From assembly GCA_011375345.1 (NCBI GenBank), contig DRLM01000126.1:1-42047 (forward strand): DNA of 42,047 nucleotides, read 5' to 3'. The notes below the pieces were generated by a model that did no database searches, had not been told where the DNA came from, and saw nothing but the letters and a program-made list of their open reading frames with translations. How positions within the stretch are numbered: the first letter of the stretch is position 1; every line of letters begins with the position of its first letter. The position numbers and the translations under genes were made by a program. The DNA comes from Gammaproteobacteria bacterium. GTDB taxonomy: Bacteria; Pseudomonadota; Gammaproteobacteria; DRLM01. Shown piece after piece: positions 1 to 14,514 of this stretch.

Positions 1-1271
1 AGCGACAATGCGCCGGGCCGGAGCGGCGCTCCGGCGCGGGCCAGCCACGGCAAGGCCCCCGCCACAAACAGCCACGCCCCCACCAGGCCCACCACGGAAA
101 ACAAGGCCACCTGCCGCAAGCCGGGCAGCGACGTGGACGCCAGACAGGCATAGGCGATCACCGTGGTGACCAGGGCCAGCGCCATCCCGGGAAACACGGC
201 GGCCAGGGCGGCGCGGCCGCCACCGCCCGCCCCCATGGCATACAAGCGGGTGAAAAAATGCAGGGCATAATCCACCGCCACACCGATCAGACTGGCGCCG
301 AACACCAGGGTGAGCACATGCAGGCCGCCGAACACCGCATGGCTCACCCCCACGGCGCACAAACACCCGAACGCGATGGCCGTGAGGCTGAGCAACAGGG
401 GGGTGAGGGAGCGAAAGGCCGCCCAGAACAACAGCACAATGCCCGCGAGCGAGCCCAGGGCAATGACGGACACGTCCCTTTGGGCCTGGGCGGCGGCGGC
501 GGCGGCGTGGAAGACGAACCCCGAACGCAACACGGCCACGCCGGGATGGCGCCCGGCCACGGCGGCGCTCAGCGCAGCGACGGCCGCGGCCACCTGCCGC
601 TGTTGCGCCAGGCTGAACGCGTCACCGCTCAGGCGGGCCGTAATCACGGCGTAGTGCTGCCGCGGGTTTTCCCGGCTCACCAGCACCAGCCCGTCCTCCC
701 GCCGGCGGCCGCCGTCGTCGCTCAGAAGCTGGCGGATGTAATCATTGAAGAGGTACAGCGGGTCCTCCTCCGGCGTCGCCACCGCCGCCCAGCTGTCGAT
801 GCCATACAGGGCCCGCTCCGCCCGGACCAGCAAGGGCTGGACCGTCCCCGCCGCCAGGGCGGCCCGCTGCGACGCCGACAGCAAATGAAAGCGATATTGC
901 TTCAGCAGGGTGACCAATGCCGCCGCGCCGCCGTCTTCATCCTGCACCGGCGCCAGGCCGGGGAGCCGGGCAAGATCGCGCTTAAGCGCCGCCGCGGCCG
1001 CCTTCACCGCGGCCTTGTCGGCGCCCGCGACGAGCAACACCAGGGTCTGGTTGGCACGCGCCAGCAAACGCCGGTTGGCGGCTTCCACCAGCGCCCCGTG
1101 CTGCACCGGTGGCAGCAAGGCGCGCAAACTCGCTTCAAACTGAAAGCCGCGCTGGCTTTGCTGCACCAGCAGTGCCAGCGCCCCCAACAACACCGCCGCC
1201 AACACCGCGCCCAAGATGCGCTGCCACCGCGCGGACAGGCTCAGCCCGCCGGGCTCAAGGCGCGGCGGCAT
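1..1271 (-). CDS. MMPL/RND-family exporter of the aryl polyene cluster (3' end outside window)
   Basis: The reading frame starts at the ATG complementary to 1269-1271 and stays open to the left edge, so about 423 residues are visible and the C-terminus is missing. A hydrophobic segment lies near residues 15-35, followed by a long soluble periplasmic stretch. A cluster of transmembrane segments follows (for example VIALGSLAGIVLLFWAAF and a segment containing FGASLIGVAVDYALHFF). This is the N-terminal half of the duplicated MMPL architecture, and GVAVDYALHF is a typical MMPL signature. The start overlaps the LolA-like gene by 17 bases, so the two are co-translated. In aryl polyene clusters this exporter is thought to move the lipid-linked pigment towards the outer membrane. 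Family assignment is firm; the substrate is inferred from context. Confidence 0.85.
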   Translation of the reverse strand, partial: MPPRLEPGGLSLSARWQRILGAVLAAVLLGALALLVQQSQRGFQFEASLRALLPPVQHGALVEAANRRLLARANQTLVLLVAGADKAAVKAAAAALKRDLARLPGLAPVQDEDGGAAALVTLLKQYRFHLLSASQRAALAAGTVQPLLVRAERALYGIDSWAAVATPEEDPLYLFNDYIRQLLSDDGGRRREDGLVLVSRENPRQHYAVITARLSGDAFSLAQQRQVAAAVAALSAAVAGRHPGVAVLRSGFVFHAAAAAAQAQRDVSVIALGSLAGIVLLFWAAFRSLTPLLLSLTAIAFGCLCAVGVSHAVFGGLHVLTLVFGASLIGVAVDYALHFFTRLYAMGAGGGGRAALAAVFPGMALALVTTVIAYACLASTSLPGLRQVALFSVVGLVGAWLFVAGALPWLARAGAPLRPGALS

Positions 1272-2436: not shown

Positions 2437-3177
2437 TCAACGGACCCTTTCCCACTTCCTCAGCAACAAACGGGGCAGGCGCCGCAACATGCCCACAAAC
2501 AACCGGCTGTGCATGGCGGAAATCCGCAGATTGTCCCGCACCATGTGGAAATGAGAAGGCACGCCGTCAGGGTAGCGGACCTGGACCTCGATCTGCTCCA
2601 GCGGCACCCCCTCCCACAGCAGGCGCACCAGGATATCGGTGTCGAAGTCCATCCGTTTCCCGATCCCGGTGCGGTTCAATAACGCAACCGTGGCGGCCAG
2701 GGGATAGAGCCGGTAGCCGCACATGGAATCCCGGACCGCCGGGGACAGGGTGTGCAGCCACACCCAAAAATCAGTGATCGCGCGCCCGTAACGCCGCCCT
2801 TTGGGCATGCTGGCATAGGGACGGCAGCCGGCAATCACCGCCTCCGGCCGGGACCGCGCCGCGGCCAGAAAACGGGGCACCGCCGCCAGGTCATGCTGGC
2901 CGTCGGCGTCCACTTGCAGGGCGTGGCTGTATCCCGCCCGGGCGGCCGCCCGCAAACCGTCACCCACCACAACCCCCTTGCCCCGGTTGCGCTCGTGGCG
3001 AATCAGCATCACACCGGGGTGGGCGGCGGCCAGACGGGCCAGCACCGCGCGGCAGGCCCGGCCGCTGCCGTCGTCCATGAGATAACAGGGCAGATCCCGG
3101 GCCACGAGCGCCGCCACCACCGCGGCAATGTTTTCCCCGTGATTGTAAACGGGAATGACGACACAGGGCCGAAACAC
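2437..3177 (-). CDS. Family 2 glycosyltransferase of the aryl polyene cluster
   Basis: This 246-residue GT-A fold protein opens with CVVIPVYNHGENIAAVVAAL and carries the nucleotide-sugar/metal motif QVDADGQHDL near residue 92. The sequence then resembles dolichol-phosphate-mannose-synthase-like GT2 enzymes. There is no long transmembrane tail, and the C-terminus is basic (RRLPRLLLRKWERVR), which suggests peripheral membrane association. It starts two bases after the stop of the dehydratase gene, so the genes are translationally linked. In many aryl polyene clusters a GT2 domain is fused to an LpxL-like acyltransferase. Here the two are separate genes in opposite blocks. The probable role is adding a sugar between the polyene and its lipid anchor (inference). 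Confidence 0.85.
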   Translation of the reverse strand: MFRPCVVIPVYNHGENIAAVVAALVARDLPCYLMDDGSGRACRAVLARLAAAHPGVMLIRHERNRGKGVVVGDGLRAAARAGYSHALQVDADGQHDLAAVPRFLAAARSRPEAVIAGCRPYASMPKGRRYGRAITDFWVWLHTLSPAVRDSMCGYRLYPLAATVALLNRTGIGKRMDFDTDILVRLLWEGVPLEQIEVQVRYPDGVPSHFHMVRDNLRISAMHSRLFVGMLRRLPRLLLRKWERVR

Positions 3178-3179
3178 CT

Positions 3180-3527
3180 TTATTCCGCAAACACGATGTG
3201 GCCGGCAGAATAGCGGCTGCGCTCATCGAAATAGCAGAACCGGAGACCAGGCCGGTCCCGGAGCGCCCCAATGTGCAGGCTGAGGCGGGCGGCGGGCAGG
3301 ATGGGGCGGGTGAACTTCAACCGCTCCAGCTTTGCAAACGCCCCCGCCGGCCGCAAACTCCCGGCCAGTTCCAAAACCCATTTGATCTGCACCACGCCGG
3401 GCAGGATGGGGTGAGCCGGAAAATGACCGCAAAAGAAAACGAGGTCGGTGGGAATATCAAGCGCGTATTCCACCCGGCCGGGCCGGGCGCGTTGCTCCAG
3501 GATGACGGGCGACTGGGAGTGTGCCAC
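3180..3527 (-). CDS. Hotdog-fold 3-hydroxyacyl-ACP dehydratase (FabA/FabZ-like, ApeI-type)
   Basis: The product is 115 residues with the dehydratase motif FFCGHFPAHPILPGVVQIKW, where the histidine of GHFP is the expected catalytic base. The usual FabZ acidic residue, which would lie on the opposite helix, is not obvious. Such small dehydratases act as heterodimers with a partner in characterised aryl polyene systems, and the third hotdog protein (12304-12732) is a candidate partner. The gene sits between the ACP gene (14 bases upstream) and the glycosyltransferase (2 bases downstream). The likely reaction is removal of water from 3-hydroxyacyl-ACP during polyene extension. Confidence 0.8.
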   Translation of the reverse strand: MAHSQSPVILEQRARPGRVEYALDIPTDLVFFCGHFPAHPILPGVVQIKWVLELAGSLRPAGAFAKLERLKFTRPILPAARLSLHIGALRDRPGLRFCYFDERSRYSAGHIVFAE

Positions 3528-3541
3528 AACAGCTCCCGCCC

Positions 3542-3793
3542 TCAGCGCTCATTCAGCACCACATACACCGCCTCGACCACATCCTGTACGGTGCGGACAT
3601 CCTTGAAATCCGAAGGCTGCATGCGTTTGCCGGTCAAGTCCTTGAGCTTGATCACCATGTCCACGGCGTCGATGCTGTCGATGTCCAGATCCTCGTACAA
3701 CCTGGCCTCAGGTCGGATGGCCGCCGGATCGGTCTCGAACAGCTCCATGATGACGTTCTTCAGATGATCGTAAATGTCTGCTTTGCTGTGCAT
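3542..3793 (-). CDS. Acyl carrier protein (first of two)
   Basis: This 83-residue acidic helical protein contains the phosphopantetheine attachment motif LDIDSIDAVDMVIKL, with the modified serine at residue 40. Size and the three-helix pattern match type II ACPs. DSID rather than the housekeeping DSLD is frequent in aryl polyene and related specialised ACPs. It is the third gene of the leftward operon and is expected to carry the growing chain or the starter unit. The Sfp-type transferase at the far end of the cluster is the natural candidate for activating it. Confidence 0.9.
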   Translation of the reverse strand: MHSKADIYDHLKNVIMELFETDPAAIRPEARLYEDLDIDSIDAVDMVIKLKDLTGKRMQPSDFKDVRTVQDVVEAVYVVLNER

Positions 3794-3912: not shown

Positions 3913-4710
3913 TCACGGACACGCGGCGAAATACCGGTCATGGTAGAAACGCTCCAGGACCGTGGTCAGCTCACGCGCCGCCCGCCCCGGCGTGGTTTTG
4001 GCCGCGGCGCGATACGGGGCAATGGAAATATCCGGCAGGATTTCGACGGTGAAATGAGGCACCTGGTCGGGCACCCGGTACCACTTTTGCCGCTTGAGCA
4101 GGGTGGCCGGTTCGCAGCGGATCAACACCGGGGTGATGTCGCAGTCCGCCGCCAGGGCCACGTGGGCGGTGCCACGCAAAAACTTAAGCGGCCGCCCGGG
4201 CCGGGAACGCGTTCCTTCGGGGAAAACGATGAGCGCATCCCCGCTGCGCAAAGAGGCCGCGCAGGCGGCGATCAGCTGCTCATGGTCATTGGCGATGTAC
4301 CCCGCCGCAGTCACCGGCCCCCGGGTGAAGGGATTGCGCCACAGGCTGCTTTTGACGATGCAATTGGCATTTTCAATCAGGGCAATCAAAAACACCACGT
4401 CCAGCAGGGAGGGGTGGTTGGCGATCACCAGTTGCCCCGGGCGCAGCCGTTCCTGCCCCCGCAACTCGTAACTCAACAGGCCCAGACCCCGCATCAGCGC
4501 GATAAACAGCCGGAAAGTTCTGGAGACAGCGGCGCGGGCACAGGCCCGTTTTTTTTCTTTCGCCAGGGGAGCGGGGTAGACGAACGCGTACATCATCAGG
4601 GCAATGGCCGCGCCCCCCAAACCAAACAGCACAAAGCTGAGTCCGGTGGCAAACACCCGCCACCCCTTTCCCAGGCCGGCCTGCCACCGCTGAGCCCGCG
4701 GAACGCGCAT
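3913..4710 (-). CDS. PlsC-like 1-acyl-glycerol-3-phosphate acyltransferase family protein
   Basis: The 265-residue protein has an N-terminal hydrophobic segment (about residues 22-46) and the acyltransferase block I motif IANHPSLLDVVF, an H-x4-D catalytic pair. Block III follows as VFPEGTRSRPGRPLKFLRG. These are the hallmarks of the LPLAT/PlsC superfamily, acting at the cytoplasmic face of the inner membrane. It lies between the chorismatase and ACP genes in the same direction. A housekeeping PlsC would not normally sit inside a pigment cluster, so an acyl transfer step on the pigment or its lipid anchor is likely. The true acceptor is unknown. Confidence 0.85.
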   Translation of the reverse strand: MRVPRAQRWQAGLGKGWRVFATGLSFVLFGLGGAAIALMMYAFVYPAPLAKEKKRACARAAVSRTFRLFIALMRGLGLLSYELRGQERLRPGQLVIANHPSLLDVVFLIALIENANCIVKSSLWRNPFTRGPVTAAGYIANDHEQLIAACAASLRSGDALIVFPEGTRSRPGRPLKFLRGTAHVALAADCDITPVLIRCEPATLLKRQKWYRVPDQVPHFTVEILPDISIAPYRAAAKTTPGRAARELTTVLERFYHDRYFAACP

Positions 4711-4774: not shown

Positions 4775-5743
4775 CTAGCGCTCACCCACCCCCTCCAGTT
4801 CTATGGCCAGATCCCGGCGGCAGATATCACCGCGCAGCAGCACCAAGGGCACTTGGTCACCAAAATGCGCGCGCAGCCCCCGGCGCAGCCCCGCCGCCGC
4901 CTCGGGCTCCCGCAGGTAGGCTTTCACACCGGTCAGGCGCGGCGGCGCCGGCAGGGCCGCCCTCGCCGCCACATGTTGCAGCAGACCCTCGATATTGGCC
5001 AGGGTCACCCCGAGCTGGCCCGCGGGGTCACCCGGGTGCAGGGTGCGGTGACCCACCACGCTGGCAGTGCCGGAAAGGAACAGCTCAGCACCGCCGCGGG
5101 ATTCAAGCAGCGTCGCCCGGGCAAAGGAAGGACTGCGGGGACCGTAGCAGCGGGGATAGCGGTAGGCGCTGACCTGCTGGGGGTTTTCGAAGTGCCGGGG
5201 AGGCACCTGGGCGGCAAGCAGATAAATCACCCCGTCCCCCCCGCCGTGGCCGATGGCACTGGCGGCGGGGTAGTGGGCCTCGGCATAGCCGGCGGCCTCG
5301 AAAGCCTGGGCCCGGCCGACGCAAAACCGCTTGTAGCGCTCGCCGTCCCCCTCACCCTGGTTGATGTGGGCGAAATAATTCCAGATCCGCAGAACATGCG
5401 GAAACCCCCGCGCCCGCGCCTGACCCAACAACAGGCCGTAAGCATCCCGCACCGCGGCGCCCAAATCCTGGCCGCGCCCCTCTTCAATGCGCCTGGCAAG
5501 CAGCAGCACAGCGTCGCTATGAGACCAGTGGCACCCCCCCTCCAGGCCGCTCACGACGGGCGCATCGCAGCGCCACACCTCCCGCCAAGGTTCCGGCGAC
5601 AGCAACGGCAAGCCTGGGTTGATGTAGCGCGCCCCGAGTTCCACCTGCCCGGCGGCGCTGAAATCCACCACCGCCAGCACCCGCTCCGACTGTAGCAGTC
5701 GCTCGGCGGGCTCGGTAGAATAGCGGCACGTCAGTCTCGGCAT
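4775..5743 (-). CDS. Chorismatase of the FkbO/Hyg5/XanB2 family (hydroxybenzoate-forming)
   Basis: The 322-residue protein matches the chorismatase family in several blocks: RIWNYFAHINQGEGDGERYK, a PAASAIGHGGG turn, LSGTASVVGHRTLHPGD, and near the C-terminus LLRGDICRRDLAIELEG, whose final glutamate (E315) corresponds to the conserved acidic residue of the family. Members hydrolyse chorismate to 3-hydroxybenzoate, 4-hydroxybenzoate or a dihydroxy product, plus pyruvate. XanB2 of Xanthomonas supplies hydroxybenzoate for xanthomonadin and ubiquinone. As first gene of the leftward block, it most likely makes the aryl starter. The isomer formed cannot be decided from sequence. Assignment rests on motif recognition. 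Confidence 0.85.
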   Translation of the reverse strand: MPRLTCRYSTEPAERLLQSERVLAVVDFSAAGQVELGARYINPGLPLLSPEPWREVWRCDAPVVSGLEGGCHWSHSDAVLLLARRIEEGRGQDLGAAVRDAYGLLLGQARARGFPHVLRIWNYFAHINQGEGDGERYKRFCVGRAQAFEAAGYAEAHYPAASAIGHGGGDGVIYLLAAQVPPRHFENPQQVSAYRYPRCYGPRSPSFARATLLESRGGAELFLSGTASVVGHRTLHPGDPAGQLGVTLANIEGLLQHVAARAALPAPPRLTGVKAYLREPEAAAGLRRGLRAHFGDQVPLVLLRGDICRRDLAIELEGVGER

Positions 5744-5925
5744 GGGATCGCTGGCGAAGATAACAACACCCGGCGCCGTGGCAGCGGCCGAGTATTTATC
5801 CGTGGGGAAGTTCGGGGCGGAATACTATCACAAAGCCGGACCGCGCCACGGCCGTCCCGCCTCATCGCCACCGGACCGGCAGCCGCCCCGCTACCAACAC
5901 CATCACAGACCCAGGACATGCGACC
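5744..5925. promoter_or_regulatory. Divergent intergenic region driving both blocks of the pigment cluster
   Basis: The 182 bases lie between the starts of the chorismatase (leftward) and methyltransferase (rightward) genes, so promoters for both blocks must lie here or further upstream. An AT-richer patch around 5790-5833 (TATTTATCC, then AATACTATCACAAA) is the only segment with promoter-like composition. No convincing paired -35/-10 elements or known operator could be assigned by eye. Confidence 0.45.
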
Positions 5926-6678
5926 ATGAAACCCGAGCAAAAAGCGCAGATTGCTCCCCATCCCGTGTTGCCGGAGTACTACGACAACGAAGGCACCCGC
6001 CGCAAAGTGGTGGACGCCATGTTCGACGCCTCCGCCCGCCACTACGACTGGATCACCACCATGATGAGCTTCGGCTCCGGCAAGTGGTACCGGCGCCAGG
6101 CCTTGTTGCGCGCCGGCGTGGCGCCGGGCATGCGGCTGCTGGATGCGGGCGCGGGCACCGGCGTCATCGCCCACATCGCCCAGGATATCACCGGCGAAGA
6201 CGGCCTGGTGGTGGCGCTCGACCCCAGCAAGGGCATGCTGAACGAGGCGCGCAAACTGGGCGTGCAACACACCGCCCAGGGCCTGGGCGAAGGGCTGCCT
6301 TTCCCCGACAACAGCTTCGACCGGGTCACCATGGGCTATGCGCTGCGCCACGTGGCCGATCTCAAAACCTTGTTCGCCGAATACCTGCGGGTGCTGAAAC
6401 CGGGCGGCGGAATGCTGATTCTGGAAATCACCCGGCCGGAAAACAAGCTCGGCCTGGCCGTGCTGAAGTGTTACCTGAAAGGCGTGGTGCCCACCCTCAC
6501 CCGCTTGTTCCGCCGGAGCAGCGACGCCCAAAAACTCATGCGCTACTATTGGGACACCATCGAAAACTGCGTGCCCCCGGCCACCATCCTGGACGCCATG
6601 GCCCAGGCCGGCGTGCACCAGCCCCGGCGCCACGTGGTGCAGGGCATCTTCAGCGAATACAGCGGGAGCAAAACATAA
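5926..6678 (+). CDS. SAM-dependent class I methyltransferase, UbiE/MenG-like
   Basis: This 250-residue protein has the class I SAM-binding motif RLLDAGAGTGVIAHIAQD and a UbiE-like N-terminus (FDASARHYDWITTMMSFG). The later motif LRVLKPGGGMLILEI is the usual post-strand 5 block. Aryl polyene clusters usually encode a methyltransferase that decorates the aryl head group, for example the methoxy and methyl groups of known aryl polyenes. First position in the rightward block supports that role. The similarity to quinone methyltransferases fits a phenolic acceptor. A quinone-biosynthesis role is less likely given the surrounding genes. Confidence 0.82.
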   Translation: MKPEQKAQIAPHPVLPEYYDNEGTRRKVVDAMFDASARHYDWITTMMSFGSGKWYRRQALLRAGVAPGMRLLDAGAGTGVIAHIAQDITGEDGLVVALDPSKGMLNEARKLGVQHTAQGLGEGLPFPDNSFDRVTMGYALRHVADLKTLFAEYLRVLKPGGGMLILEITRPENKLGLAVLKCYLKGVVPTLTRLFRRSSDAQKLMRYYWDTIENCVPPATILDAMAQAGVHQPRRHVVQGIFSEYSGSKT

Positions 6679-6680
6679 CC

Positions 6681-6956
6681 ATGGCGCAGCAAAGCGAACA
6701 AGAACGGGAACTGGCGGCGGTGCTGGTGTCGGCCCTGGATCTGGACGACGTGGACCCTGCCGACATCGACCCACAGGCCCCCCTGTTCGGCGTGGACGCG
6801 CCCGACAGCCTGGGCCTGGATTCCATCGACGCCCTAGAAATCGCCCTGGCGGTGGCCCAGAACTACGGCGTGCAACTCAAAGCCGACGACGAAAACAACC
6901 GCGCCATCTTCGCCAGCCTGCGGGCCTTGTCCGAGCACATTGCGGCGAACCGTTGA
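6681..6956 (+). CDS. Acyl carrier protein (second of two)
   Basis: The 91-residue protein starts at the ATG at 6681, two bases after the methyltransferase stop. It carries the phosphopantetheine motif LGLDSIDALEIALAV with the serine at residue 48. The N-terminal half is very acidic (DLDDVDPADIDPQ). It differs clearly from the ACP at 3542-3793, so the cluster encodes two distinct carriers. In the studied aryl polyene systems two ACPs also exist and divide the work between starter loading and extension. Which does which here is unknown. Confidence 0.9.
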   Translation: MAQQSEQERELAAVLVSALDLDDVDPADIDPQAPLFGVDAPDSLGLDSIDALEIALAVAQNYGVQLKADDENNRAIFASLRALSEHIAANR

Positions 6957-7024
6957 GGCTGCCAGGCACCCATGGAACGTGACCGCTCCCCGATCCATCC
7001 CCTGTCTTTGAATACGCCCCACCT

Positions 7025-7052
7025 CCCCCCCCCCTTTGAAAAAAGGGGGGGG
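7025..7052. repeat. C-run/G-run palindrome between ACP and membrane-protein genes
   Basis: Ten C, TTTGAAAAAA, then eight G form a strong hairpin. The same core (CCCC-TTTGAAAA-GGGG) recurs at 8999-9015, and related arms are found at 9075-9097 and 33052-33070. It looks like a dispersed palindromic repeat rather than a terminator, because there is no U tract and the flanking genes are in the same direction. Confidence 0.6.
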
Positions 7053-7079
7053 CCGGGGACGGCGGGCTGAGGCAAGGCC

Positions 7080-7676
7080 ATGCAGCCTGCCCTGCTCATC
7101 GCCTACCCACTGTTTGTCCACCTGGGCGTGGCGCTGGACGTTCCCGCCCTGCACGTGCTGGCCATGATCTGTCTCGCCGCCGGGCTGCTCTACACGGGCC
7201 TTGCCGCGAGGCACCGTGACGCCTGGGGAATACTGGCCGGCGTCAGCCTGCTGGCCGCCGGCGTGGGCTACGCCGACTTCAGCCTCTACGTGCTGTATCT
7301 GCCGCCGATACTGATCCCGCTGCTGTTTTTCGCCGTGTTCCTGCGCTCTTTGCTGCCGGGCCAGGTGCCCCTGATCACCGCCATCGCCGATCAGGCCCGC
7401 GGGCCACTCTCAGACGCCATGCGCCGCTCCACCGACGCCTCCACAGCCATGTGGACCGTGCTGTTCGCCGCCATGACCCTGTGCTCCGCCGTGCTGCCCT
7501 GGCTGGCTTCTGCGGCCACCTGGTCGTTTGTCACCAATTTTCTGAACTATGCCGTGGTGGCACTGGTGTTCTTCGGTGAGTTCGCATATCGCCTGTGGCG
7601 CTTCCCCGAGCACAACCACCCCAGCTTTTGGGAGTATATTCTCATCGCGGTGCGCGCCAACATCGGGAAATCGTGA
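7080..7676 (+). CDS. Integral membrane protein of aryl polyene clusters (COG4648-like)
   Basis: The 198-residue protein is mostly hydrophobic, with about five or six transmembrane segments. These include PALHVLAMICLAAGLLY, VLYLPPILIPLLFFAVFLRS, WTVLFAAMTLCSAVLPWLAS and FLNYAVVALVFFGEFAYRLW. The polar tail YRLWRFPEHNHPSFWEYI is distinctive. It resembles the uncharacterised membrane proteins found next to the AMP-ligase in aryl polyene clusters; this is from memory of the family. The stop codon shares one base with the start of the ligase gene (TGATG), showing tight coupling. A role in membrane anchoring of the synthesis machinery or in transport is possible, but none is demonstrated. Confidence 0.75.
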   Translation: MQPALLIAYPLFVHLGVALDVPALHVLAMICLAAGLLYTGLAARHRDAWGILAGVSLLAAGVGYADFSLYVLYLPPILIPLLFFAVFLRSLLPGQVPLITAIADQARGPLSDAMRRSTDASTAMWTVLFAAMTLCSAVLPWLASAATWSFVTNFLNYAVVALVFFGEFAYRLWRFPEHNHPSFWEYILIAVRANIGKS

Positions 7677-8980
7677 TGACGGAGAAGGCCCTGCCCCTCA
7701 TCAAAGACTACCGCCCGGAGGCGGTGTTGATTCAACAAGGCGGCAACCCCATCACCCAGAGCGAATTCCTCGCCGCCACCAGCGCGGCGGCCGAGGCACT
7801 GCCCGACGCGCCTTATCTCATCAACCTCTGCCGCGACCGCTACGCCTTCATGCTGGCCTTCTGTGCCGCCCTGCTGCGCCACCGCACCACCCTGCTGCCG
7901 CCCAACCGGCAGGCCGCGACGTTGGCGGAACTGGCGGCGGATTACCCCGGCGCTCACTACCTGTCCGACCGCGAGGAAGACCTGCCGGACATCCCCGGCA
8001 TGACGGTCTCCGGCATCAAAGCCCCCGGTCCCGCACCTGCCGTGCCCGCCATCCCTGCCGACCACATCGCCGCCATCGCCCACACTTCCGGCAGCACCGG
8101 CAGACCCGAACCCATAGTGAAACCCTGGCGCACCCTGGCGGGCACGGCCGCCCTGTTGAACCGGCGTTTCAACAACGACGCGACCGTCACCCCCAGCGTC
8201 GTCGCCACCGTGCCTTCCCAGCACATGTACGGCCTGGAAATGACCGTGCTGCTGGCCCTGCAAGGCCGCGCCCGGCTGAACAGCGCCCATCCTTTTTACC
8301 CCAGCGATATCGCCGCCACCCTGGCCGCCGTCCCCGCGCCGCGGCTGCTGGTCACCACCCCTGCGCACCTGCGCGCCCTGCTGGGCAGCAATATCGAACT
8401 GCCGCCCGTGGCCAAAACCGTCTCCGCCACCGCGCCCCTGGCCCGGGAACTGGCCGCCCAAGCCGAACAAGGCTTCGGCGGCGCGGTGGAAGAAATCTAC
8501 GGCTGCACCGAAGCCGGCAGCCTCGCCACCCGCCGCACCACCACCGGCGAACCCTGGCGGCTGCTGAACGGCATGCGGCTCACCCAAGGCCCGGACGGCC
8601 TGCGGGTCACCGGCCCCCAACTGCCCAACGCCCCGCTGCTGCAAGACCACCTGGAACTCATCGACGACACCCACTTCCGCTTCCTCGGGCGCGCCTCCGA
8701 CACCATCAACGTCGCCGGCAAACGCGGTTCCCTGGCCGACCTCACCCTGAAGCTGTTGAGCGTGCCGGGCGTGGAAGACGCTTTCGTCTACCTGCCCGAA
8801 GGGGCCCGGCGCCCCGCCGCCGTGGTGGTATCAAAGCGCAGTGAACAGGCCCTGCTCAAAGACATGGCGGCAAAAGTGGACCCGGTGTTTCTGCCGCGGC
8901 CGTTGCGGAAAGTGGCGGCGATACCCAGGAATGAGACGGGCAAAGTGACGCGGGAACTACTCAAAACATTAGCGCCATGA
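7676..8980 (+). CDS. AMP-dependent aryl/acyl-ACP ligase (hydroxybenzoate-activating, ApeH-like)
   Basis: The 434-residue protein is a compact member of the ANL (adenylating) superfamily. Visible motifs are the P-loop-like AIAHTSGSTGRPEPIVKPW, the A5 motif EIYGCTEAGSLATRR, the hinge region FLGRASDTINVAGKRG and the C-terminal lysine motif IPRNETGKVTRELLK. The start at 7676 overlaps the preceding stop by one base. An in-frame ATG at 7595 would lie inside the membrane-protein gene and is unlikely. Its expected reaction is ATP-dependent activation of the hydroxybenzoate made by the chorismatase and transfer to an ACP. It is shorter than typical acyl-CoA synthetases, as expected for aryl polyene ligases. 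Confidence 0.85.
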   Translation: MTEKALPLIKDYRPEAVLIQQGGNPITQSEFLAATSAAAEALPDAPYLINLCRDRYAFMLAFCAALLRHRTTLLPPNRQAATLAELAADYPGAHYLSDREEDLPDIPGMTVSGIKAPGPAPAVPAIPADHIAAIAHTSGSTGRPEPIVKPWRTLAGTAALLNRRFNNDATVTPSVVATVPSQHMYGLEMTVLLALQGRARLNSAHPFYPSDIAATLAAVPAPRLLVTTPAHLRALLGSNIELPPVAKTVSATAPLARELAAQAEQGFGGAVEEIYGCTEAGSLATRRTTTGEPWRLLNGMRLTQGPDGLRVTGPQLPNAPLLQDHLELIDDTHFRFLGRASDTINVAGKRGSLADLTLKLLSVPGVEDAFVYLPEGARRPAAVVVSKRSEQALLKDMAAKVDPVFLPRPLRKVAAIPRNETGKVTRELLKTLAP

Positions 8981-8992
8981 ACCGCTGCTCCT

Positions 8993-9097
8993 CCAACTCC
9001 CCTTTGAAAAGGGGGTTGGGGGGATTTGTCGAAATGAACAAACTGTCCTTATTTGAATTTGAAAATCCCCCCTGCCCCCCCTTTCCCAAAGGGGGGG
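8993..9097. repeat. Nested palindromic element of C/G runs
   Basis: Three inverted pairs lie in about 105 bases. CCAAC at 8993 pairs with GTTGG at 9015 around CCCCTTTGAAAAGGGG. GGGGGGATTT (9018-9027) pairs perfectly with AAATCCCCCC (9063-9072) across 35 bases. CCCCCCCTTT (9075) pairs perfectly with AAAGGGGGGG (ending 9097) around CCC. It fills the space between the ligase and the next dehydratase and could be a small non-autonomous repeat. No open reading frame is needed to explain it. Confidence 0.65.
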
Positions 9098-9131: not shown

Positions 9132-9440
9132 ATGATCGAGATATTGCTCAAGGCCCCGGCCGAACATCCCTGCTACGCCGGGCATTTTCCCGGCCGGCCC
9201 ATTGTCCCCGGTGCTTTGCTCACCCATTGGATTGTCCAGCATTGCCAACACACCTTTCCCGGCCACACGGTCACGGGCATTAAAGCGATGAAGTTTTTGC
9301 ACGTGGTGGAACCGGGGGATGAATGCCTGGCACAGTTCTCGCTGAATGAGGCCGGTACCGAGGCGCGGGTGCTTTGCCGTACCGGCGGGACGGTGATCTG
9401 CAAAGGCACGCTGCGCCTGGCGGTGGATCCGGCGCCGTGA
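9132..9440 (+). CDS. Hotdog-fold dehydratase/thioesterase-like protein (second FabA/FabZ-like copy)
   Basis: The 102-residue protein carries YAGHFPGRPIVPGALLTHWI, the same catalytic-histidine motif as the dehydratase at 3180-3527. It then has a short hotdog sheet (GIKAMKFLHVVEPGDECLAQF). The start at 9132 is chosen because the residues upstream come from the adjacent palindromic repeat. Its stop overlaps the next gene as GTGA. The window therefore has two ApeI-like proteins, and which one acts in dehydration is unclear. Confidence 0.8.
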   Translation: MIEILLKAPAEHPCYAGHFPGRPIVPGALLTHWIVQHCQHTFPGHTVTGIKAMKFLHVVEPGDECLAQFSLNEAGTEARVLCRTGGTVICKGTLRLAVDPAP

Positions 9441-10348
9441 ACGGCCATTGGTCCGAGCAAGGGGAGCGCAGCAATCGCCTGATGCAGACGCTGCTGGTGT
9501 GGATTGCGCTGAAGCTGGGGCGGCGCAGCGCGCGGCTCATACTTTATCCCACGGCGGCCTATTTTCTGCTTTTCCACGGCAGCGCCCGGCGCGCCTCGCA
9601 AAACTATTTGCGCAAAGTCCTGGGACGGACGCCGAGGTGGCGGGAGGTGTTTCAACACTTTCTCACCTTCGGCACGGTATCAGTGGACCGCTTGTTTTTT
9701 CTCTCCGGCCGCTTCGAGGAATTCGATATCGCGCTTGCCGGCCAGGAACTGTTCGGGCCCTTGCGGGCAAACCAGCAGGGCGCCTTGTTGCTGGTGGCGC
9801 ATTTGGGCAGCTTCGATGCCATGCGGGTTTTGGGCGCCCGGGAGGGGACGCTGCCGCTCAAAATAGTGCTGGACCGCCGGCACAACGCCCGCGCCGCCAC
9901 GCTCTTGGATGCCCTGGACCCGGCGCTGGCGGCCAACATCATCGACGCCGGCCGCCCCGCCCCGGAGTTGGTGCTGGCGCTGGATGACTGCCTCAAAAAC
10001 GGCGCCATGGTGGGCATCATGGCCGACCGCGCCCGGCGGGACGAGCGGGTGCAGGCCGTGCCTTTTTTCGGTGAACCCGCCCACTTCCCCTTGGGCCCCT
10101 GGCAACTGGCCTTGAGCCTGAAAGTGCCGGTGATTCTGTGCTGCGGCCTGTACCGCGGCGGGAAGCGCTACAGCCTGCATTTTGAAACCCTCAGTCCCGG
10201 CATTGCGGCGGCCCGCGGCCAACGGGGCGAGGTACTGGGCCGGCATCTCGCCCATTACGCCGCCCGCCTGGAACACTACGCCCGCCTGGCGCCGTACAAT
10301 TGGTTTAATTTTTACGATTTCTGGTCCCATGCAGCCCCTGACGATTAA
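9437..10348 (+). CDS. LpxL/HtrB-like lysophospholipid acyltransferase
   Basis: The 303-residue product begins at a GTG at 9437 that overlaps the upstream stop (GTGA); an upstream in-frame ATG at 9374 would lie inside the previous gene. A hydrophobic N-terminus (LILYPTAAYFLLFHG) is followed by the H-x4-D motif LLVAHLGSFDAMRVLG and the later block GIMADRARRDERVQAVPFFG. These place it in the LpxL family of inner-membrane acyltransferases that use acyl-ACP. In other aryl polyene clusters this domain is fused to a glycosyltransferase. Here it is a stand-alone protein. The likely role is attaching an acyl or aryl-polyenoyl chain to the lipid anchor. Confidence 0.83.
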   Translation: MNGHWSEQGERSNRLMQTLLVWIALKLGRRSARLILYPTAAYFLLFHGSARRASQNYLRKVLGRTPRWREVFQHFLTFGTVSVDRLFFLSGRFEEFDIALAGQELFGPLRANQQGALLLVAHLGSFDAMRVLGAREGTLPLKIVLDRRHNARAATLLDALDPALAANIIDAGRPAPELVLALDDCLKNGAMVGIMADRARRDERVQAVPFFGEPAHFPLGPWQLALSLKVPVILCCGLYRGGKRYSLHFETLSPGIAAARGQRGEVLGRHLAHYAARLEHYARLAPYNWFNFYDFWSHAAPDD

Positions 10349-11516
10349 CGATTACACCCTGGTCACCGCCCTGGGCGCGGGACGGGCGGCCCAGCGCCGC
10401 GCCCTGCTGGCCGGCGAAACCGGCCTGGCGCCCTGCCGTTTTTTCGATATCACCGATTTGCCCACCTTCGTGGGCGAGGTGGCGGGGCTGGACGAGGTCA
10501 CGCTGCCTACCGAACTGGCCGAGTTCGATTGCCGCAACAACCGCCTGGCCTGGCTGGCTTTGCAGCAAGACGGCTTCACCGCCACTGTGGCCGGGGCGGC
10601 GGACCGCTACGGGCCGGACCGCATCGGCGTGTACGTGGGCACCAGCACCGCCGGCATTCATCACACGGAGCTGGCCTATTTCGCCCGCGCCTCCATTGAT
10701 GCGCCCCTGCCTGGCTGGTACCGCTACGACAGCACCCACAATATGTACTCGGTGGCGGAATTCGTGCGGCTGGCGCTGGGGCTGAACGGAATCAGTATGG
10801 CCATCTCCACCGCCTGTTCCTCCAGCGCCAAAGTGTTCGCCTCGGCTGAGCGGGCGATGGCGGGCGGTTTGATCGACGCGGCGGTGGTGGGCGGCGCGGA
10901 CAGCCTGTGCCTTACCACGCTCTATGGTTTTCATTCCCTGCAACTGGTGGCCGACGAACTGTGCCGCCCGGCGGATGCGGCGCGGCGCGGCCTCAACATC
11001 GGCGAGGCGGCCGGGTTTGCGCTGCTGGAGCGGGACGGCGACCCGGCGCGGCCCAAACTGCTGGGATACGGGGAAAGCGGCGATGCCTATCACATGTCCT
11101 CCCCCTGCCCCGACGGCGCCGGGGCTTTGCTGGCCATGGGGGCCGCCTTGCGCCGTGCCGCTCTGGCAAGCGATGATATCGATTACATCAATCTGCACGG
11201 CACGGGCACCAAGACCAACGATCTGGCCGAGTGCACCGCCGTGCAGCGCCTGTTCGGGCCACGCACACCCTGCAGCTCCACCAAAGGCTGGACCGGGCAC
11301 ACCCTGGGTGCGGCGGGGATCGTGGAAATCGCGTTTTCACTGCTCGCTCTGGAGCACGGTTTTATGCCGCAAAGCCTGAATACGCGGGAGGTGGACCCGG
11401 CCATCACCTGCCGCATTGTCACCGAAACGCGGCATGCGCCGCTGGGGCGGGTGCTGTCCAATTCCTTTGGCTTTGGCGGCAGCAATTGCAGTTTGATTGT
11501 GGGTGCGGGGGCATGA
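10329..11516 (+). CDS. Beta-ketoacyl-ACP synthase (active ketosynthase of the polyene PKS)
   Basis: The 395-residue protein is a FabF-type ketosynthase. The catalytic triad is intact: C163 in SISTACSSSAKVF-type context (MAISTACSSSAKV), H290 in INLHGTGTKTND and H324 in KGWTGHTLGAAG. The C-terminal glycine loop SNSFGFGGSNCSLIV is also present. The ATG at 10329 overlaps the acyltransferase gene by 20 bases. The next gene encodes a half-length ketosynthase-like protein, so the pair resembles the KS-chain length factor heterodimers of type II PKS. It should condense malonyl-ACP units onto the aryl starter. Confidence 0.92.
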   Translation: MQPLTINDYTLVTALGAGRAAQRRALLAGETGLAPCRFFDITDLPTFVGEVAGLDEVTLPTELAEFDCRNNRLAWLALQQDGFTATVAGAADRYGPDRIGVYVGTSTAGIHHTELAYFARASIDAPLPGWYRYDSTHNMYSVAEFVRLALGLNGISMAISTACSSSAKVFASAERAMAGGLIDAAVVGGADSLCLTTLYGFHSLQLVADELCRPADAARRGLNIGEAAGFALLERDGDPARPKLLGYGESGDAYHMSSPCPDGAGALLAMGAALRRAALASDDIDYINLHGTGTKTNDLAECTAVQRLFGPRTPCSSTKGWTGHTLGAAGIVEIAFSLLALEHGFMPQSLNTREVDPAITCRIVTETRHAPLGRVLSNSFGFGGSNCSLIVGAGA

Positions 11517-12313
11517 AACCGGTCTACGTGAATGCGGTGGGGCTGGTGGCGCCGGGCCTGCCCGGCTGGCATCACGGCCACGCGGTACTAAAGGGCGAGG
11601 CACCCTTTGTCGATGAACCGCTCACCCTGCCCAAACCGGCCCGCCTGCCCACCAACGAACGCCGCCGCGCCACTGAGCTGATCAGGCTCGCGTTTCAGGT
11701 TTGTGCCGATGCGGTGGACGGGCGTGACCTGGCTGTGGACCAACTGGCCTCGGTGTTCGCGTCCTCGGGGGGGGATTATCACATCGTGGATCAAATCTTC
11801 CGCGCCTTGAGCAAACCGGAGCGGCAGGTCTCGCCCACACAGTTCCACAACTCGGTGCACAACGCCGCAGCGGGTTACTGGAGCATCGCCACGGGTTCGC
11901 AGGCGCCCTCCACCAGTCTGTCCGGCCACGATTTCACGGTAAGCGCGGGCTTGCTGGAAGCGGCATTGTTGTGCAACGCCGAACAACGTCACACCTTGTT
12001 CGCGGTATACGACGTGCAGCCGCCCGAGCCCTTGCTCACAGCGCGGCCCATTGCGGCGCCCTTTGCGGCGGCTTTGTTGTTGTCGCCGGACCGCGGGCCG
12101 GACGCCATCGCCGCCCTGCAGTGCGCGGTCGAACCGGCTGCAGCGGGCGAATCCGCCGCGACCGACCCGGCCTTGGAAACCGTCCGCCAGGGCAACCCCG
12201 CCGCACGCATCCTGCCCTTGCTGACATGCCTGGCCCGGCAACAAAACGACACCGTGCACCTCGCCATGGCCGGCACGCAAACACTAACCGTGGAGGTGAG
12301 CACGTGCCGCTGA
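11513..12313 (+). CDS. Ketosynthase-like chain length factor partner (inactive KS, N-terminal half only)
   Basis: The 266-residue protein resembles the N-terminal ketoacyl-synthase half (Pfam Ketoacyl-synt_2 type). The segment FHNSVHNAAAGYWSIATGSQ, then APSTSLSGHDFTVSAGLLEA, aligns with the nucleophile region of ketosynthases but has no cysteine (TSLSG where the active partner has TACSS). The C-terminal histidine half is absent. It starts within the stop of the active KS gene (ATGA at 11513). Together with that KS it probably forms a heterodimer that sets polyene length. Its short length is normal for the family and is not evidence of decay. Confidence 0.82.
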   Translation: MKPVYVNAVGLVAPGLPGWHHGHAVLKGEAPFVDEPLTLPKPARLPTNERRRATELIRLAFQVCADAVDGRDLAVDQLASVFASSGGDYHIVDQIFRALSKPERQVSPTQFHNSVHNAAAGYWSIATGSQAPSTSLSGHDFTVSAGLLEAALLCNAEQRHTLFAVYDVQPPEPLLTARPIAAPFAAALLLSPDRGPDAIAALQCAVEPAAAGESAATDPALETVRQGNPAARILPLLTCLARQQNDTVHLAMAGTQTLTVEVSTCR

Positions 12314-12732
12314 CGCGCAAAGACATCGCCCGCCTGATTCCGCACGGTGCAAGCATGTCTTTGCTGGATGCGGTGGCGGGGTGGGATACCGACCGCATCC
12401 TGTGCACCACCACCTCGCACCGCCGCGGCGGCAATCCTTTGTGGGCAGGCGGCATGCTGCCCAGCGCCTGTTTGATCGAGTACGGCGCGCAGGCGGCGGC
12501 CCTGCACTGCGCGCTGGGCCGCCAAGGCCAGGCGCTCACCGGCCCCGCCTATCTGGGGTCAGTAAAAGACGCGCAGTGGCACAGCGAAACCGTCAATAAA
12601 TCCATCGACAAGCTGCACATCGAAGCACGCTGCGTGATGCAGCAGAGCGGCGGCGCAATCTACCAGATCAAGGCATCGGCCGGGGCGCAGCCGCTCATCG
12701 AGGCGCGCATCGTGCTCGTCCAGGCCGTCTGA
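12304..12732 (+). CDS. Hotdog-fold 3-hydroxyacyl-ACP dehydratase (ApeP-like, third copy)
   Basis: This 142-residue product starts at GTG 12304, overlapping the preceding gene by 10 bases. It has the FabZ/FabA-like opening IARLIPHGASMSLLDAVAGW and, on the central helix, ACLIEYGAQAAALHCAL, whose glutamate is placed like the catalytic acidic residue of FabZ-type enzymes. The two ApeI-like proteins have the conserved histidine but no obvious acid. A histidine is also present here (PHG). A heterodimer between this protein and one of the other two fits the known aryl polyene dehydratase arrangement, but the pairing is inferred. Confidence 0.78.
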   Translation: MPLTRKDIARLIPHGASMSLLDAVAGWDTDRILCTTTSHRRGGNPLWAGGMLPSACLIEYGAQAAALHCALGRQGQALTGPAYLGSVKDAQWHSETVNKSIDKLHIEARCVMQQSGGAIYQIKASAGAQPLIEARIVLVQAV

Positions 12733-13737: not shown

Positions 13738-14514
13738 GTGGCGAGGGTAACCGCCATCACCCTGGACGAGGCCGACATTCACCTGTGGCTGTGCCACCAG
13801 CGGGACGGGGTGGATGCGTGCTTAAGGCGGCGTTACCTCGCACTGTTGGCGGCAGAGGAACGTGCCCGTTACGACAGCATCACGCGAGACGCGGTGCGGC
13901 GCTGTTTTCTGCTCAGCCGCGCCTTATTGCGCACCACCCTGTCGCACTATGCCCCGGTCGCGCCGGCAGACTGGGAATTCTGCACCAACGCACACGGCAA
14001 GCCCGAAATTCTCTCGCCGGCACTCCCCCTGCGGTTCAATCTCAGCCACGGCGGTGATTATGCCGGCTGCGCCGTCACTCTCAATGCCCGCCTCGGCGTG
14101 GATATTGAAGCGGCGCACCGCCAGACCCGGGCCCAGGCCATCGCCAAACACTATTTTTCAAAAGCCGAATATGATGATTTGCTGCGCCAGCCCCATGCCA
14201 GGCAGGGGGAGCGTTTTTTCGACTACTGGACATTGAAGGAAGCTTACGTCAAAGCCTTGGGCACGGGGCTGGCCACTTCGCTGAAGTCGTTCGGCTTTGA
14301 GCTGCGAAAGGAAAAACCCATTGCGGTGCGCTTTTTCGACAAAGCCCTGGGGGAGCCGGACAAGTGGTGGTTTGCGCTGTATCGCACCCCGGCGGACCAC
14401 CGCCTGGCGCTGGCCTGGGAGCGTTGTCCGACCCCGCCGCCCGTGGTGCGCGCCTTCCGCACGGTGCCTCTGGAAGGGTGTCGCCCCTTGTCTTTGGTCC
14501 CCGCTTTGGGGTGA
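13738..14514 (+). CDS. Sfp-type 4'-phosphopantetheinyl transferase
   Basis: The 258-residue product has the two diagnostic motifs of Sfp-type enzymes: LGVDIEAAHR (magnesium-binding aspartate and glutamate) and FFDYWTLKEAYVKALGTGL (W-x3-KEA-x2-K). The central LRFNLSHGGDYAGCAV block is also typical. It transfers phosphopantetheine from CoA to carrier proteins, probably the two ACPs of this cluster. The start is uncertain. GTG 13738 lies about 18 bases after a GGAGGGAGGG stretch, while GTG 13699 is in frame but has no well-placed ribosome site. It converges with purK, with two bases between the stop codons, so it marks the right border of the pigment cluster. Confidence 0.88.
   Translation: MARVTAITLDEADIHLWLCHQRDGVDACLRRRYLALLAAEERARYDSITRDAVRRCFLLSRALLRTTLSHYAPVAPADWEFCTNAHGKPEILSPALPLRFNLSHGGDYAGCAVTLNARLGVDIEAAHRQTRAQAIAKHYFSKAEYDDLLRQPHARQGERFFDYWTLKEAYVKALGTGLATSLKSFGFELRKEKPIAVRFFDKALGEPDKWWFALYRTPADHRLALAWERCPTPPPVVRAFRTVPLEGCRPLSLVPALG

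Follow-up and report, generated by a model that had tools for sequence, protein, structure and literature searches.

The gene interval at positions 4775-8980 very probably belongs to a complete cluster for a yellow aryl polyene pigment of the xanthomonadin/arcuflavin type, fed by a chorismatase that would make mainly 3-hydroxybenzoate (3-HBA) and be dedicated to the pigment. Its limits are exactly the end of the chorismatase gene and the end of the AMP-ligase gene. The window, that is, the whole stretch of 42,047 nucleotides analysed here, is the entire contig C126 of a 2.68 Mb genome (162 contigs, estimated 99% complete). A preliminary description had proposed a chorismatase-fed, xanthomonadin-like aryl polyene; family matches, completeness of the gene set, a protein tree and class-wide co-occurrence all support that reading. 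The features are as follows.

1-1343, minus: MMPL/RND-type exporter (ApeM-like), N-terminal part; open frame off the window end, rest on contig C69
1255-1971, minus: LolA-like carrier (ApeL-like); PF19574, E 2.4e-4, slightly below cut-off; position kept in syntenic loci
1941-2351, minus: 4HBT thioesterase (ApeK-like); PF13279, E 1e-11
2437-3177, minus: family 2 glycosyltransferase (ApeJ-like); PF00535, E 6.7e-16
3180-3527, minus: ApeI-like dehydratase; PF22818, E 3.7e-13
3542-3793, minus: acyl carrier protein; PF00550, E 1.3e-9
3913-4710, minus: phospholipid/glycerol-type acyltransferase (ApeD-like); PF01553, E 2.3e-18
4775-5743, minus: chorismatase (FkbO/Hyg5/XanB2 family), heading the left block; TIGR04444, E 9.9e-69; PF21168, E 2.7e-34
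5926-6678, plus: UbiE-like SAM methyltransferase (ApeB-like role); PF01209, E 7.6e-31; under all NCBIfam UbiE cut-offs
6681-6956, plus: acyl carrier protein, aryl polyene type; NF006617, 113.8 bits (curated cut-off 70)
7080-7676, plus: membrane protein in the ApeG/COG4648 position; no family match; position and sequence kept in syntenic loci
7676-8980, plus: aryl-AMP ligase (ApeH/ArcT-like); PF00501, E 1.7e-19
9132-9440, plus: FabZ-like dehydratase; PF07977 and FabZ models
9482-10348, plus: lipid A-type acyltransferase; PF03279, E 9.6e-10
10329-11516, plus: beta-ketoacyl-ACP synthase (ApeO-like); NF006618, 508.8 bits (curated cut-off 407), scored on the longer frame 10182-11516
11513-12313, plus: chain-length-factor-like ketosynthase (ApeC-like); PF13723, E 3.2e-29
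12310-12732, plus: dehydratase-like protein (hotdog); weak FabZ match, 6.5e-4; syntenic in related loci
13750-14514, plus: Sfp-type 4'-phosphopantetheinyl transferase; PF01648, E 2.3e-20

The genes form two divergent blocks. The minus-strand block opens with the chorismatase gene, as first described, and continues with genes for the acyltransferase, an acyl carrier protein (ACP), the ApeI-like dehydratase, glycosyltransferase, thioesterase, LolA-like carrier and MMPL exporter. The plus-strand block comprises the UbiE-like methyltransferase, ACP, membrane protein, AMP ligase and a dehydratase, followed by the lipid A-type acyltransferase, ketosynthase, chain-length-factor-like ketosynthase and a second dehydratase. 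Beyond it lie a HEAT-repeat-like protein (read from the sequence, without family match) and the Sfp-type phosphopantetheinyl transferase, which probably arms the ACPs of the cluster. The ligase translation contains the motifs HTSGSTGRP, YGCTEAG and PRNETGK (read by eye). Two details of the preliminary description needed correction. The ligase and ketosynthase do lie in the divergent block, but with only one ACP (6681-6956), the other (3542-3793) being in the chorismatase block; and chorismatase and ligase, said to stand side by side, share the cluster but are about 1.9 kb apart, with the methyltransferase gene between them.

The exporter gene is broken by the window end, where 52 bases (window 1-52) are identical to the right end of contig C69. 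Joining the two contigs, which are probably neighbours in the genome, yields an exporter of 816 amino acids. Past the exporter, C69 carries genes for a DUF3261 protein, an ApeP-like dehydratase, a ketoreductase and a second ketosynthase, and with these the aryl polyene gene set is complete: ligase, ACPs, ketosynthase and chain-length factor, ketoreductase and ApeI/ApeP dehydratases are present, as are the thioesterase, LolA, exporter and DUF3261 roles. Compared by way of the published role table (Table 1), the E. coli CFT073 cluster (apeA-R) has the methyltransferase, chain-length factor, acyltransferase, ACPs, ApeG, ligase, ApeI, glycosyltransferase, thioesterase, LolA, RND exporter, DUF3261, ketosynthase, ApeP, ketoreductase and second ketosynthase in common with the present one, and nearly all ape roles are filled in the window plus C69. 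The E. coli cluster differs in having neither chorismatase nor phosphopantetheinyl transferase, its 4-hydroxybenzoate (4-HBA) being made by UbiC.

The 322-residue product of 4775-5743 is a genuine member of the FkbO/Hyg5 chorismatase family. The TIGR04444 match covers profile positions 3-310 of 311 with 232 bits, below a curated cut-off of 325 bits that none of the 369 surveyed genomes of the class passes, and in phmmer searches FkbO (4BPS) and Hyg5 (5AG3) both match the protein at about 5e-50. The residues at Hyg5 positions 173, 240 and 327 are Ala, Gly and Cys, against Gly, Gly, Cys in Hyg5 and Gly, Ala, Ala in FkbO. Among the sampled chorismatases, 31 have four or more aryl polyene genes in their neighbourhood, and 29 of these show the same Ala-Gly-Cys combination. 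Subclass CH-II, whose members make only 3-HBA, is marked by Gly173, Gly240 and Cys327 (Gly164, Gly231 and Cys318 in Nat-hyg5 numbering); the window protein departs from it at one of the three marks, with Ala for Gly at 173, and is excluded from the clade that unites Hyg5, FkbO and actinomycete proteins (SH-aLRT 99). It departs from CH-I, the FkbO type, in having Gly and Cys instead of Ala and Ala at 240 and 327. In a tree of 68 proteins, drawn chiefly from genomes of the class and without named XanB2 or ArcB sequences, it joins two pigment-linked proteins (SH-aLRT 83) inside a group of eight that are all pigment-linked (92). A phylogeny and a comparison of active-site residues were among the checks suggested in the preliminary description; the tree places the protein with pigment-linked proteobacterial chorismatases, and it is likely a CH-III (XanB2/ArcB-type) enzyme. 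A scan of named genomes found three relatives only, all of them distant.

Chorismatases without aryl polyene neighbours are more varied at position 173: the 31 sampled have Ala (17), Val (6), Leu (4), Gly (3) or Thr (1). The Val, Leu and Thr residues, frequent in this set (loci L067, L084, L090, L052, L073, L075, L080-L083 and L079), may possibly mark another product, for example 4-HBA only.

Chorismatases borne on pigment clusters are already known, and the arrangement seen here is not new. In Azoarcus sp. BH72 the arc genes for arcuflavin include a XanB2-type chorismatase, ArcB, and an aryl-AMP ligase, ArcT, both characterised experimentally in 2014 (PMC3949708), and share glycosyltransferase, LolA, exporter, acyltransferases, ketosynthase and chain-length factor with the window. 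They differ in that arcB and arcT occupy two unlinked loci, whereas the window pair sits in one; Azoarcus also has a halogenase gene, arcA, and a cluster for dialkylresorcinol. In the pig cluster of Xanthomonas (XanB2) and in Lysobacter (ORF5), here compared by description, a cluster-borne chorismatase likewise supplies 3-HBA for an aryl polyene (PMC3949708, PMC3691225); XanB2, however, also makes the 4-HBA of coenzyme Q (PMC3949708), whereas the present genome has a separate UbiC. With this precedent, and with such chorismatases widespread in the class, the implied novelty of a built-in enzyme as a trait of this lineage is not supported. Xanthomonadin-type pigments have a 3-hydroxyphenyl head that is often brominated; a search of the genome for a tryptophan-type halogenase (PF04820) found none. 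Bromination is variable in xanthomonadins.

In the proposed pathway, the chorismatase would split chorismate into pyruvate and mainly 3-HBA, possibly with some 4-HBA. The ligase would adenylate the hydroxybenzoate and transfer it to an ACP that the cluster's own phosphopantetheinyl transferase has activated, and the ketosynthase/chain-length factor, ketoreductase and dehydratases would extend it iteratively, in type II fashion, to an aryl polyene. Methylation of the head group would fall to the UbiE-like enzyme; candidates for release, attachment to a lipid and transfer to the outer membrane are the thioesterase, the acyltransferases and the LolA, DUF3261 and MMPL proteins. The choice of 3-HBA leans on characterised systems. 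In vitro the product of ArcB is 3-HBA, and its expression in E. coli gave 4-HBA as well; 3-HBA is among the acids that ArcT activates; and arcuflavin incorporates fluoro-3-HBA but not fluoro-4-HBA (PMC3949708). In Lysobacter, pigment formation in an ORF5/xanB2 mutant is restored by 3-HBA (PMC3691225). Several findings count against this choice: Ala at Hyg5 position 173, where the 3-HBA-only CH-II enzymes have Gly; the activation of several 4-substituted benzoates by ArcT (PMC3949708); and the availability of UbiC-made 4-HBA in the cell. The authors of the Azoarcus study, moreover, consider the sequence of a chorismatase an unreliable guide to its product (PMC3949708).

The product might instead be an ordinary aryl polyene of the E. 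coli/Xenorhabdus type, primed by 4-HBA, with the chorismatase either giving 4-HBA or duplicating, for the most part, the work of UbiC. We consider this improbable, though it is the best placed of the alternatives. XanB2-type enzymes make both acids and ArcT accepts 4-substituted benzoates (PMC3949708); E. coli ApeH is predicted to take UbiC-derived 4-HBA, and UbiC is present in this genome; and a UbiE-like C-methyltransferase would fit a 4-hydroxy-3-methylphenyl head. With UbiC present, however, a second source of 4-HBA inside the cluster would be superfluous, and the characterised chorismatase-fed pigments, arcuflavin and that of Lysobacter, are built on 3-HBA (PMC3949708, PMC3691225). A narrower form of the preferred 3-HBA reading, in which the polyene is C-methylated by the UbiE-like enzyme while the chorismatase serves the pigment only and UbiC is kept for ubiquinone, seems unlikely as a whole. 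If true, its C-methylated 3-hydroxyphenyl head would differ from those of xanthomonadin (O-methyl) and of the E. coli type (4-hydroxy-3-methyl).

The association of chorismatase and ligase extends through the class. A chorismatase is present in 73 of the 369 genomes surveyed. It occurs in 49 of the 63 that have a ligase of this kind (counted at E below ~1e-40), against 24 of the 306 without (p ~4e-30). The ligase gene lies divergently upstream of the chorismatase gene, 0.3-4.2 kb away, in 18 sampled loci, and in two of these (L049 and L053) almost the entire gene order is that of the window. The closest ligases (G205, 52%; G183, 48%) belong to the same two genomes as the closest chorismatases, as expected if both genes travel together. 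Neither a chorismatase nor a close relative of the ligase was found in five other genomes of the family to which this genome belongs, indicating that the cluster is patchy at family level.

The genome encodes one UbiC, full-length and beside UbiA on contig C105, away from the cluster; no other complete hydroxybenzoate pathway tied to the ligase was found. Given this arrangement, ubiquinone need not rely on the chorismatase: its 4-HBA would come from UbiC, and the chorismatase most likely serves the pigment alone, as far as gene content can tell. The cluster, described earlier as self-sufficient, does carry chorismatase, ligase, two ACPs, both ketosynthase types, ketoreductase, several dehydratases and phosphopantetheinyl transferase, but UbiC could also supply 4-HBA from elsewhere in the genome.

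A chorismatase feeding ubiquinone as well as pigment, like XanB2 in Xanthomonas, is the pattern that class-wide counts might lead one to expect. UbiC is depleted among genomes with chorismatase: 22 of 73 have it, compared with 203 of the 296 that lack a chorismatase (p ~3e-9). By simple counts the UbiC association also looks strong at p ~2e-5, but allowing for relatedness leaves three well-supported independent pairs and none contradicting, too small a number for significance. UbiC is missing from all 20 genomes that have a convincing chorismatase and no ligase (four weak family matches excluded) and is kept in 18 of the 49 that have both. Among the 369 genomes no convincing chorismatase was found outside these two settings, ligase present or UbiC absent. 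The distribution points to a family with a role in pigment formation, in ubiquinone formation or in both; once shared ancestry is allowed for, the support is no more than suggestive. For the present genome a dual role is nonetheless quite unlikely, since the full-length UbiC adjoining UbiA makes a second source unneeded. By itself the locus contributes little, the useful by-product being the class-wide pattern; it suggests that UbiC-keeping genomes such as this one are the place to seek pigment-only chorismatases. Neither UbiA nor UbiC was found near any of the sampled chorismatases, so the unlinked ones do not belong to a ubi operon.

Least probable by far is an FkbO-type enzyme making a dihydroxycyclohexadienoate starter instead of hydroxybenzoate: homology to FkbO is clear and the profile matched is a joint FkbO/Hyg5 one, but the residues at 240 and 327, the position outside the FkbO/Hyg5 clade and the benzoate-type ligase next door all speak against it. 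Hyg5 and FkbO share the fold family with the window protein, and Hyg5 also Gly240 and Cys327, but they form a separate clade and have Gly at 173.

Other chorismatases in the sample deserve mention. Two distant chorismatase-like proteins (L094, L095) form a long separate branch and come from UbiC-bearing genomes, without pigment genes nearby. The chorismatase at 11908-12882 of L098, from plasmid pNK83 of Caballeronia sp. NK8, groups with actinomycete Hyg5 (SH-aLRT 97), which suggests transfer between phyla. On a Streptomyces goshikiensis plasmid (L100, 2800-5312) a gene for an AMP-binding protein directly follows the chorismatase gene, so chorismatase-ligase pairing is also found outside aryl polyene clusters.

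A sigma-70 promoter scan of the divergent intergenic region gave no match. A palindrome-like intergenic element of 30 bases, CCCC..CCTTTGAAAA..GGGGG, occurs three times in the plus-strand block, at 7022-7051, 8990-9019 and 9068-9097. The copies are 73-77% identical and flank the membrane protein and ligase genes; the element is probably a dispersed intergenic repeat.
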